Virus record (IMG/VR): IMGVR_UViG_3300046804_004591 | Span: 1 to 30,378 of that record | DNA: 30,378 nucleotides | Direction: 5' to 3' (one strand) | DNA from: a virus | Shown: positions 8,228 to 12,240 of the stretch, piece after piece | How the letters are laid out: each line of letters begins with the position of its first letter | How positions within the stretch are numbered: the first letter of the stretch is position 1 | The notes under the pieces: model-generated | The model's database searches: none | What the model was told of the DNA's origin: nothing | What the model saw: only the letters and a program-made list of their open reading frames with translations | Position numbers and translations under genes: made by a program

Positions 8228-9538
8228 CTACTTTTTTCTATATTTATTTATGAAATTGAGACCGAAGTTTTTCTGTCCAAATGCAAGATTTTCTTTTCCT
8301 AGTTGAGAGCCTCTTGTTTGCTTATCAACATACTTCAAATAACCAGTTGTTCCTACTAATGTATTGGGTTTCCCAGGCTCCCTATACATTCTGTCCATAT
8401 GTTTTTCAGTATATGCTTCACTCACGTCCTTAATCCAAGATTTAAACATAATGTTGTCTTCTGTTACACAAATCAGATAATTTGTCCCTCTACGAATGAT
8501 TCTTCCTACCAATCCAGTATTCAGGTTTTCAACAAGATGTCCAATTCGGAAAATTACCTCATTAATATAATTCTCACGAAGAGATTTTTGATCAAACTTA
8601 GGCGCAATCTCCCAAACTTCGGCAACCTGATCCTGAATGCCCATAGCCTGGCGAACAGTATCAAAAATTGCTCTGGCATCTTTTGGTTTCATTTCTGGAG
8701 GCATTCCAGCACGAAATGTTTTGAAATCACCTTCAGAAGCAGCAAGTCTCATTCTTGATGCAGAAAGGCCTTCAACACCATCAGAATCTGGATCACGATC
8801 TCCAGCAGATACTACTTCAATATTGTCAAACTGATAAAGATTTCCGTTATAATTGTTTGCCAATTTATTAAATTCTTTAACTCTATCTGCTCCCCCTACA
8901 ATTCTCACATTTGCATAACCATCGTTATGTGCCTTTTTGAGAACATCAAAAATAGTTCTGGTACTTACATCATTTGCGATTCTCTCACTATGCTGAGGGA
9001 ACATAGATCTCATCAGAGAAACCTTGGTATCAGCATCCAGAGGATTCTTTTTCTTATCCTGTGTACGGGAAGGGACAATCATATAATCACTTCCTTCCTG
9101 CTCTGCAGCCGCTGCTGCAGTATCCATCAATTGAAGGTGGCCAAGATGAGGTGGATTAAATCTACCAAATGCAACAGTTAAAGTTCCCTTAGTCTTTTCT
9201 ACTGGAAGATAATTAACTGGTGGTGCTTCTTGTGCTGCCTGCTGTTGTTCTGGAGGAACTTCTTGTTGCTGCCCTTGTGCGGCAGCCTGCTGCTGAGCAA
9301 TCGCTGGATCCTGAAAATTAGGATCTGAAACATTTTTTTCCAGTTCTGTTTGAGTAGGATCTTTTCCTAGAGCCTGCCTCTTATTAAAGAATTTAAGTTG
9401 TCCTTTTACAGTTTTAGCAACAAATTCACCATCCTTATACCATCCACCGTGTCCATCACCTTGCAGTCCAAGTCTAGTTGCCTGTAAAGATGCGGCGGTT
9501 TCTTGTAAATTAATTAAAAACTTAGAAAAACTTTTCAT
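8228..9538 (-). CDS. HxGH nucleotidyltransferase with capsid-targeting-like N-terminus
   Basis: This 436-residue protein has a cytidylyltransferase/NMN adenylyltransferase-type domain at about residues 118-300. It contains VAFGRFNPPHLGH (HLGH at 131-134, nucleotide binding) and GLSASRMR (258-264), the usual second signature. The N-terminus MKSFSKFLINLQE resembles the T4 internal-protein capsid-targeting sequence MKTYQEFIAE, including an L-x-E site for a gp21-like prohead protease. Residues 81-105 are a Gln/Ala/Pro linker. The C-terminal block (LNTGLVGRIIRRGTNYLICV) is a module I recall from other cyanophage proteins. Its ATG overlaps the upstream stop as ATGA. The substrate cannot be told from sequence; NMN, FMN or CTP chemistry are all possible. 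Confidence 0.82.
   Translation of the reverse strand: MKSFSKFLINLQETAASLQATRLGLQGDGHGGWYKDGEFVAKTVKGQLKFFNKRQALGKDPTQTELEKNVSDPNFQDPAIAQQQAAAQGQQQEVPPEQQQAAQEAPPVNYLPVEKTKGTLTVAFGRFNPPHLGHLQLMDTAAAAAEQEGSDYMIVPSRTQDKKKNPLDADTKVSLMRSMFPQHSERIANDVSTRTIFDVLKKAHNDGYANVRIVGGADRVKEFNKLANNYNGNLYQFDNIEVVSAGDRDPDSDGVEGLSASRMRLAASEGDFKTFRAGMPPEMKPKDARAIFDTVRQAMGIQDQVAEVWEIAPKFDQKSLRENYINEVIFRIGHLVENLNTGLVGRIIRRGTNYLICVTEDNIMFKSWIKDVSEAYTEKHMDRMYREPGKPNTLVGTTGYLKYVDKQTRGSQLGKENLAFGQKNFGLNFINKYRKK
8245..8252 (-). promoter_or_regulatory. Late-type promoter CATAAATA
   Basis: The minus strand has CATAAATA, 7 of 8 to the T4 late consensus, inside the last codons of the nucleotidyltransferase gene and 32 bp before the ATG at 8212. 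The spacing matches the other late promoters in this window. Confidence 0.5.
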
Positions 9539-10780: not shown

Positions 10781-12073
10781 TCAACTGACCTGATATCCAA
10801 TCTTATCATCAATTCGTTCTGCACCATTTTTAGTTCGTATTGCAACTCTAAGAACTCTAGATACGCTATTTAGTTCTGTGGTAGAAGATGCAGAAAAAGA
10901 GGGATTCTGAGATGCATTTGCAGTCATCTTAACGTATATAACTCTGGTTTTATTCAAGTATTTTTCAAAAATATTCTTTAAATCTGCATTTGCTGTTGGT
11001 GTAGTAGACCATTTTGCAATTTCTTGTTCACAAACATAACGAAGTATCCCAACACTCATATCTTGAGGTTTTTTTCCAGACATAACAGGATAAGAACCTT
11101 TAAATCTATCTATAAATGGAAGCACTAATTGAAGATCTGGTATACTTTTATTGGAATCAGTATTGACTCTATAAACAGATAATATACTAGAAATCATAGT
11201 ACTAGTTAGTACGTTTGGATATATTGCTTGATATGCATAAAAAGGACCAGATTTTGCTTCGTTATCTGCCAATAATTGAAGAACTCTATAGGCAAGAGTA
11301 TTTTTTAATCGTGTAAGGTTACTGTCAGTTGTAACCTCATTCAAAGGATCTACAACAAATTGAGGTTTAACAACGTTAGAAACAGATCCTCCCCTTTTAG
11401 CGGAAATCATATACTCTTCACCAGTCGAAGAATTAATTAATTTGTAGTCATACAAAGCAACAGAATCACTAGGAATGTAAATTTTACAAGAGGAAGGTGA
11501 GGATATAAGTTGACTTAATCCAGAACAACGACCACTTACACACGCTATAGGACCAGCAACTTCTCCAAAATATGAAGTTATTTCTCCCCAAGGCAATCCA
11601 TCTTTTTGAATATCATTAAAAGAAGTTGTTCCAGTTTTAGCATAATTTAAAACCGCAAGAAGATACTCATATAATTCACCTCCAATTTCTCCATTACTAA
11701 CTCTATTGTTTAATGAATCAACAATAGTATTGTAATAAGAAGTTGTAGATATAAATGTTGTATTTTCTACACCAAAATCTTTTGGTTTTAGACCAACACC
11801 AGAAACTCCTCCAGGCTTACGGAAATTATCTATAGGCGAATAATAAACTGATCCATTTTCATTAAACTGAAATGCTATTTTATTATTACCACCTCGGTTA
11901 ATATGTTGTGAAAATATATCTCTGTAAGTAACTTTTGCCCTTAAAGGTAGTATTCCTTCCTGCTTGGATGTCGTTTCATCAGCATAATAAGGTGCAGATT
12001 TTTTGACTTCTACAACGACGCCATCATTTCCTTCGTAGTATTTTTTCCAAGAATCTTTACCAGAAGTTGCCAT
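10781..12073 (-). CDS. Unknown 430-residue phage protein
   Basis: The protein starts MATSGKDSWKKYYEGNDGVV. The N-terminal 80 residues look beta-rich (AKVTYRDIFSQHI, NKIAFQFNENGSVYYSP). The middle has two close cysteines (PIACVSGRCSG) and the segment YDYKLINSSTGEEYMISAKR, which has the beta-hairpin look of PD-(D/E)XK-type cores but lacks a clean (D/E)xK. The C-terminus is Ser/Thr-rich. I cannot assign a family. It follows the tRNA genes and precedes the KxDG protein. Its upstream sequence CTAAATAATTTCAAAAAATG closely matches that of the gene at 12256-12663, suggesting common regulation. Confidence 0.75.
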   Translation of the reverse strand: MATSGKDSWKKYYEGNDGVVVEVKKSAPYYADETTSKQEGILPLRAKVTYRDIFSQHINRGGNNKIAFQFNENGSVYYSPIDNFRKPGGVSGVGLKPKDFGVENTTFISTTSYYNTIVDSLNNRVSNGEIGGELYEYLLAVLNYAKTGTTSFNDIQKDGLPWGEITSYFGEVAGPIACVSGRCSGLSQLISSPSSCKIYIPSDSVALYDYKLINSSTGEEYMISAKRGGSVSNVVKPQFVVDPLNEVTTDSNLTRLKNTLAYRVLQLLADNEAKSGPFYAYQAIYPNVLTSTMISSILSVYRVNTDSNKSIPDLQLVLPFIDRFKGSYPVMSGKKPQDMSVGILRYVCEQEIAKWSTTPTANADLKNIFEKYLNKTRVIYVKMTANASQNPSFSASSTTELNSVSRVLRVAIRTKNGAERIDDKIGYQVS

Positions 12074-12083
12074 TTTTTGAAAT

Positions 12084-12090
12084 TATTTAG
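12084..12090 (-). promoter_or_regulatory. Possible late-type promoter (CTAAATA) and A-rich leader
   Basis: The minus strand reads CTAAATAATTTCAAAAAATG into the start codon at 12073. CTAAATA is a degenerate match to the late consensus. The same leader, with AATAAATA in place of CTAAATA, precedes the gene at 12663. It lies directly after the tRNA 3' end. Confidence 0.3.
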
Positions 12091-12163
12091 TGCCCGTGAG
12101 AAGATTTGAACTTCCACTGTATGGATTCTAAGTCCACCCTCTCTACCGTTGGAGTACACGGGC
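12091..12163 (-). tRNA. tRNA, anticodon UAG (predicted Leu, codon CUA), class I fold
   Basis: This 73-nt cloverleaf reads on the minus strand: acceptor GCCCGTG/CACGGGC, D-stem CTC/GAG, anticodon stem GTGGA/TCCAT with loop CTTAGAA (T33, anticodon TAG), T-stem GGAAG/CTTCT with loop TTCAAAT, and discriminator A. CCA is not encoded. The anticodon reads CUA (Leu), but the variable region is only 5 nt (ACAGT), whereas bacterial tRNA-Leu normally has a long class II arm. Amino-acid identity is therefore uncertain. It lies 4 bp after tRNA-Ala. Confidence 0.85.
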
Positions 12164-12167
12164 AAAG

Positions 12168-12240
12168 TGGAGAATAGGGGAGTCGAACCCCTTACCTCCT
12201 GCGTGCAAAGCAGGCGCTCTACCAAATGAGCTAATTCCCC
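12168..12240 (-). tRNA. tRNA-Ala, anticodon UGC
   Basis: This 73-nt cloverleaf reads on the minus strand: acceptor GGGGAAT/ATTCTCC with one G-U pair, D-arm GCTC/GAGC, anticodon stem CCTGC/GCAGG with loop TTTGCAC, T-arm AGGGG TTCGACT CCCCT, and discriminator A. CCA is not encoded. It reads GCA and other Ala codons. The G3-U70 pair, the main identity element of tRNA-Ala, is present. A near-consensus sigma70 promoter ends just before it. Confidence 0.95.

Follow-up and report, generated by a model that had tools for sequence, protein, structure and literature searches.

Leucine identity in Escherichia coli tRNAs has been assigned to the discriminator A73, the A15–U48 pair, G18G19 and A20a, and does not need the variable arm, according to excerpts of PMC9976931. 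The E. coli tRNA-Leu variants without a long variable arm described in the same excerpts are leucylated and depend on A73 and core contacts, as we predict for the tRNA studied here, but they were made in the laboratory and, unlike our tRNA, are missing the anticodon arm too. For yeast, the same source describes a strong drop in the leucylation of tRNA-Leu(UAG) when m1G37 is changed, which counts against free tolerance of an A at this position. A figure legend of PMC2265525 attributes short variable arms to several tRNAs of the Sec, Ser, Tyr or Leu type, and an excerpt of PMC8450103 mentions a human tRNA-Leu-CAA gene that lacks the long arm and resembles tRNA-Met. In strains of the Mycobacterium mucogenicum clade, a cluster-encoded tRNA-Leu(TAG) has a short variable loop (PMC6582537, in excerpt); by description alone it resembles our tRNA in its UAG anticodon and short loop, but it lies in a cellular tRNA cluster, with a long-loop copy elsewhere. 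In the open-licence literature, as excerpted, PMC6582537 was the sole report that we found of a short-loop bacterial tRNA-Leu(TAG), and an account of a wider family was not found.

We analysed a 30,378-base virus record, referred to throughout as the window. It encodes a DNA polymerase, a UvsX-like recombinase, a clamp loader and ribonucleotide reductase, and the protein encoded at 8228–9538 shares 63.8% identity with its counterpart in Synechococcus phage S-SRM01 and 60.7% with the one in Prochlorococcus phage P-SSM2. Judged by its sequence, the virus is a cyanophage related to the Kyanoviridae. ARAGORN called a tRNA-Leu(tag) at 12090–12163 on the minus strand, and Rfam RF00005 matched 12091–12163 on the same strand with 58.1 bits against a cut-off of 29 (Table 1). 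The acceptor stem GCCCGUG/CACGGGC is followed by U8 A9, the anticodon stem is GUGGA/UCCAU and the T arm is GGAAG-UUCAAAU-CUUCU. ARAGORN, Rfam and the domain parse confirmed what had been read from the sequence alone, namely a UAG anticodon in a sound cloverleaf with A73 and a variable region of 5 nt, a length that excludes the tRNA from class II tRNA-Leu, defined by a variable arm of at least 10 nt. We take the tRNA-Leu of the host to be class II. Position 37, on which the sequence-only reading is silent, is an A next to G36, compared with G37 in 13 of the 15 unique class II UAG tRNAs of our pool. The 430-amino-acid open reading frame (ORF) directly downstream of the tRNA gene (10781–12073, minus strand) had no Pfam match at E 0.01 and no PHROG match at E 0.001.

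Table 1. The tRNA-Leu(UAG) gene of the window, its parts and the adjoining tRNA gene (positions are those of the window).
Feature	Position	Strand	Basis
Class I tRNA-Leu(UAG), 73 nt, CCA not encoded	12091–12163	−	ARAGORN; Rfam 58.1 bits; family covariation
D arm CUC-CAACGGUAGA-GAG: 3-bp stem, C13·A22 unpaired, A14 A15, G18 G19, A20a (Leu-type)	12139–12154	−	Domain parse, signature counts, identity elements in PMC9976931 (excerpts)
Anticodon UAG in loop CUUAGAA with A37	12128–12130	−	ARAGORN and domain parse
Variable region ACAGU, 5 nt; last base U48 is the partner of A15	12116–12120	−	Domain parse
Discriminator A73	12091	−	Domain parse
tRNA-Ala(UGC), upstream partner in Ala–Leu pair	12168–12240	−	ARAGORN, Rfam; same pair in 12 relatives

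The window tRNA carries the whole E. coli leucine set of A73, A15–U48, G18G19 and A20a (D arm CTCCAACGGTAGAGAG). The same elements recur in related genes: the A15–U48 trans-Levitt pair is present in 93 of 96 unique class I tRNA-Leu genes, and the columns of G18G19 and A20a are invariant in an alignment of 46 of them. The combination of A73, A15–U48 and a D stem of only 3 bp was found in 92/96 class I and 25/26 class II tRNA-Leu genes but in 2 of 423 other unique tRNAs (one Pro, one Ser); for part of this pool only A73 and U48 are independent, because the search patterns fixed A14–A15, G18G19 and part of the D stem. The sequence-only reading had raised the possibility of leucine charging through other elements such as A73, and both this signature and the family described below support it well. 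If the host leucyl-tRNA synthetase (LeuRS) reads its substrates as the E. coli enzyme does, it would recognize A73 together with the core A15–U48, G18G19 and A20a, and since neither anticodon nor long variable arm would then be needed, it would charge the window tRNA with leucine. The charged tRNA would add decoding capacity for CUA, and perhaps for CUG by wobble, during infection. Very probably, then, the window tRNA still delivers leucine and leaves the code unchanged, with extra leucine decoding of CUA as its likely role; we infer expression, charging by the cyanobacterial enzyme and a benefit to the phage. Taken as a whole, we hold with high confidence that this is a working class I tRNA-Leu of a Kyanoviridae-related cyanophage, charged with leucine by the host LeuRS and adding CUA decoding.

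Short variable regions proved to be common among related viral genes. A 16-base anticodon-arm pattern matched at least 119 stretches on viral contigs; the 119 loci listed were picked by the anticodon arm alone, yet are close relatives of one another. Among these listed matches, 116 loci hold a UAG tRNA with a 5-nt variable region, and at the other three (L019, L037 and L116) ARAGORN called no UAG tRNA; the UAG genes of the listed loci comprise 40 distinct sequences. The sequence-only reading had named many phage relatives with the same class I tRNA-Leu as a finding that would refute its proposal, and the 116 loci provide such relatives. All loci fetched yielded 205 class I tRNA-Leu rows with exclusively leucine anticodons (UAG 129, UAA 57, CAA 11, AAG 4 and GAG 4), of which 96 are unique, and only unique-sequence counts are safe because some loci hold one place twice (for Millisia, L128, L325, L350 and L362). 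Among the unique class I genes, 95/96 have a 5-nt variable region, 95/96 a 3-bp D stem and 95/96 C13·A22, although many of the loci were retrieved with patterns in which part of the D arm is fixed, which partly builds in such features; A73 is present in all 96, as it is in all 26 unique class II tRNA-Leu genes of the pool. The window gene shows every one of these class I features as well as a leucine anticodon. Three class I leucine anticodons can occur on one phage contig, as in L032 (CAA, UAA, UAG), L071 (CAA, GAG, UAG) and Lactobacillus phage Bacchae, L132 (CAA, UAA, UAG).

Class I tRNA-Leu(UAG) genes of Bacillus phage P59, Lactobacillus phage Bacchae, Pseudomonas phage Ep020 and Enterococcus phage phiSHEF16 share the anticodon and D-arm form of the window gene. 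Their variable regions measure 4–5 nt by ARAGORN and their loops read YUUAGAA; they differ from the window gene in host, and their identity to it outside the anticodon and variable region is 0.66–0.73. Vibrio phage pv27 also has a short-arm tRNA-Leu(UAG) (L135:704–781), but its G37 and dissimilar body may point to a separate loss of the long arm. The tRNA-Leu(UAA) of the enterobacterial Salmonella phage FelixO1 (L136:494–572) combines a variable region of 7 nt with the class I leucine D arm. From 871 ARAGORN rows we dropped three left untyped by the program and four Leu(TAA/CAA) calls in L051, L057, L058 and L099; the tRNA-like gene that ARAGORN calls Leu at these four loci has a GAYAACG loop without U33, and a gene of similar body in S-PM2 (L143:1384–1456) was left untyped. 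ARAGORN called L370 as Phe(AAA) through a one-base shift.

The family extends to cellular genomes. Of 200 genomes in the order to which Millisia brevis belongs, 62 matched a pattern built on the D and anticodon arms of the UAA/CAA form, and at 15 loci from this pattern all 16 tRNA-Leu genes have a 5-nt variable region. A looser pattern, which fixed this length and also allowed UAG, matched 32 of 198 Actinomycetota genomes. Class I tRNA-Leu(UAA) or (CAA) genes of Millisia brevis (L325, L334), Nocardia farcinica (L137) and Tsukamurella (L138) share the short variable region, leucine-type D arm and A73 with the window gene; they are cellular and have other anticodons, and the loop of the UAA genes, CUUAAAA, is one base away from the CUUAGAA of the window. 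For the Millisia genome, a draft of unstated completeness, we typed every one of the 48 tRNA matches. The Leu(CAG), the Leu(GAG) and one Leu(UAG) belong to class II, and Leu(UAA) and Leu(CAA) were found in class I form only. Genome G157 gave 45 tRNA matches, all on one 5,395,557-base contig, and we typed 17 of the 45, including all eight of at least 81 nt. Those eight comprise Leu(CAG, GAG and UAG), four Ser and one Tyr, while its Leu(UAA) and Leu(CAA) belong to class I. If the search missed no class II gene, UUA and UUG are decoded by class I tRNAs in both genomes, and these tRNAs must accept leucine. At eight loci (L124–L131) from a separate scan of genome contigs, ARAGORN called a UAG tRNA-Leu in L128 and L130, other tRNA-Leu genes in L127 and L131, and no tRNA in L124, L125, L126 or L129; a pattern fixing the 5-nt variable region gave one match on the genomes of L124, L126 and L129, in that of L124. 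A Thermomicrobium match proved to be a tRNA-Lys. On a Tsukamurella tyrosinosolvens plasmid (L138:4001–5280), the class I tRNA-Leu(CAA) adjoins a site-specific integrase gene, as at an attachment site; in Mycobacterium smegmatis, attB overlaps tRNA-Leu-CAA (PMC10865867, in excerpt). By its sequence features, the window tRNA joins a widespread class I tRNA-Leu family of phages and Actinomycetota; a short-loop mycobacterial tRNA-Leu(TAG) had been published before (PMC6582537, in excerpt).

We then considered where the short variable region came from. The sequence-only reading had proposed an anticodon change in a class I tRNA such as Arg(UCU), an origin that neither the D-arm form nor sequence identity supports. 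In the phage tRNA-Arg(UCU) used for comparison, from cyanophage L142, the D stem is 4 bp long and the discriminator is G73, both unlike the window tRNA, and a D stem of only 3 bp occurs in 0 of 38 unique tRNA-Arg genes. Of the 48 Millisia tRNAs, class I Leu(CAA) at 0.64 and class II Leu(UAG) at 0.61 came closest to the window tRNA, and Arg(UCU) scored 0.55, gaps that are small. The Millisia class I Leu(UAA), with its D arm of leucine form, scored 0.73 with Lys(UUU), 0.68 with Arg(UCU) and 0.60 with class II Leu(UAG), and the family as a whole may stem either from some other class I tRNA or from a class II tRNA-Leu stripped of its arm. The anticodon loop is CUUAAAA in all 44 unique class I UAA genes and CUUAGAA in 34 of 36 unique class I UAG genes, and A37 replaces G37 in 35 of these 36. 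A37 is kept beside G36 because the UAG loop is the UAA loop with one base changed, A36 to G. The class I UAG and UAA copies of Millisia differ by this substitution and one acceptor-stem base. These copies, at L325:66–141 (UAG) and L325:1506–1582 (UAA), lie 1.4 kb apart and each adjoins an ORF. These two ORFs share their final stretch of protein, and the longer of them resembles a Ppx/GppA phosphatase. The arrangement suggests a local duplication with the anticodon changed in one copy.

To place the window gene at its genomic site, we surveyed 158 loci (L146–L303) fetched through the polymerase and UvsX genes. Both tRNA-Ala(UGC) and tRNA-Leu(UAG) are present in 12 of them, and a further 13 show no more than the Ala gene, in some cases perhaps because the fetched sequence is cut off there. 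Beside UvsX and tRNA-Ala, the variable region of tRNA-Leu(UAG) measures 5 nt in 3 of the 12 (L236, L247 and L289), 11 nt in one (L263) and 13–15 nt in eight, so class I and class II forms replace one another at this one site. In S-SRM01 (L122) a class II tRNA-Leu(UAG) lies immediately downstream of tRNA-Ala and upstream of the cytidylyltransferase gene, as does the window tRNA, although in the window two further ORFs intervene before that gene; it differs from the window tRNA in its 13-nt variable arm, G37 and U8–G9, with an identity of 0.61. Another class II tRNA-Leu(UAG), on the plus strand from L227:4582 onwards on a contig with a UvsX relative, combines a 15-nt variable region with the exact T arm and CUUAGAA loop of the window gene, and may represent a step between the two classes or a product of recombination between them.

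The strongest competitor to the arrival of a class I lineage is that the short variable region eroded in place from the class II tRNA-Leu of the site, which we consider doubtful but worth serious weight. Such erosion would fit the variable-region lengths of 15, 14, 13, 11 and 5 nt at the same site, and the L227 gene already has the T arm and loop of the window gene; without the anticodon and variable region, its identity to the window gene is 0.75, above that of any class I gene scored outside the close relatives (0.58–0.73). The other class II genes scored, whether from the site or from S-SRM01, reach only 0.50–0.66, however, and class I UAG genes from elsewhere reach 0.58 (Millisia), 0.66 (Ep020), 0.69 (phiSHEF16), 0.72 (P59), 0.73 (Bacchae) and 0.73 (Pseudonocardia). 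Core positions also argue against erosion: U8–A9 is found in 93/96 and C13·A22 in 95/96 class I genes, whereas class II genes have U8–G9 in 26/26 and C13·A22 in 1/26. Overall identity is not decisive, and U8–A9 together with C13·A22 favours the view that the window gene arrived as a class I gene.

It has been proposed that phage tRNAs with altered anticodon loops evade anti-phage nucleases (PMC10264068, in excerpt), and a leucine tRNA might accordingly serve chiefly as a substitute for the host tRNA-Leu that such enzymes destroy, its short arm and A37 loop making it a poor target. The replacement of G37 by A37 in 35/36 unique class I UAG genes would fit. Descent from the UAA form explains A37 as well, however, and class I genes are the sole UAA and CAA forms found in two cellular genomes, where a benefit to a phage does not apply; we therefore regard this explanation as unlikely, and extra leucine decoding as the likely role.

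A decaying or non-functional tRNA copy is a much weaker proposition. The A37 is odd, and the lowest-energy fold of the bare window transcript is an alternative to the cloverleaf (−26.6 kcal/mol, z −2.88). Unmodified tRNA transcripts can adopt a non-cloverleaf structure as their fold of lowest energy. We aligned 46 class I tRNA-Leu genes, the window gene and 45 hand-picked from 91 distinct genes, and found 99.7% of 920 cells paired and two-sided changes in 17 of 20 pairs; the pairing is partly built in, because ARAGORN, which found the genes, itself requires stems, and the two-sided changes are less so. None of 500 shuffles reached the covariation score, and sliding the partners by 1–3 columns lowered pairing to 36–49%. 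With this covariation and pairing, and with UAG genes of 5-nt variable region in nearly all of the listed anticodon-arm loci, decay is very improbable, and on the sequence evidence a chance match or pseudogene is likewise unlikely.

The sequence-only reading had also allowed for charging with a different amino acid, which would recode CUA. Of 30 hand-chosen window ORFs compared with the fetched loci, 26 had matches of at least 35% identity; CUA accounts for 69 of the 696 leucine codons of the ORFs. At window CUA sites, homologues using another codon have leucine at 2126 of 2563 positions (82.9%), within the range of other leucine codons by the same measure (70.9% for CUU to 86.2% for CUG), although these counts are not independent because the homologues are related contigs. 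Leucine is the commonest residue at 48 of 52 CUA sites with at least eight homologues, and at the remaining four it is Arg, Met, Val or Thr, once each. The residues at positions homologous to CUA lead us to reject recoding, and together with the all-leucine anticodons of the family they contradict the earlier suggestion. Recoding or mistranslation of CUA in the infected cell by a tRNA charged with another amino acid, for which the missing long arm and the UAG-anticodon mitochondrial tRNAs charged with Thr in Saccharomyces cerevisiae or Ala in Ashbya gossypii (PMC7609411, in excerpt) could be cited, is very improbable given leucine at these positions, the leucine identity signature, the leucine codons read by the family and the class II tRNA-Leu that relatives hold at the same site.

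Leucine charging by host LeuRS is therefore the reading that we carry forward, and it removes a candidate change of the genetic code. A broader and speculative possibility is that Actinomycetota, Bacillota phages and cyanophages exchange a single class I tRNA-Leu lineage, which in phages has spread to five leucine anticodons; the armless A37 form might persist by being charged by many LeuRS enzymes, by needing no m1G37 methylation and by escaping host factors (nucleases, nucleotidyltransferase toxins and SerRS) whose recognition depends on the long arm or on the usual anticodon loop. Related phages with a class I or a class II tRNA-Leu(UAG) at one site are a natural setting in which to compare how LeuRS recognizes each form and whether either escapes defences directed at tRNA.
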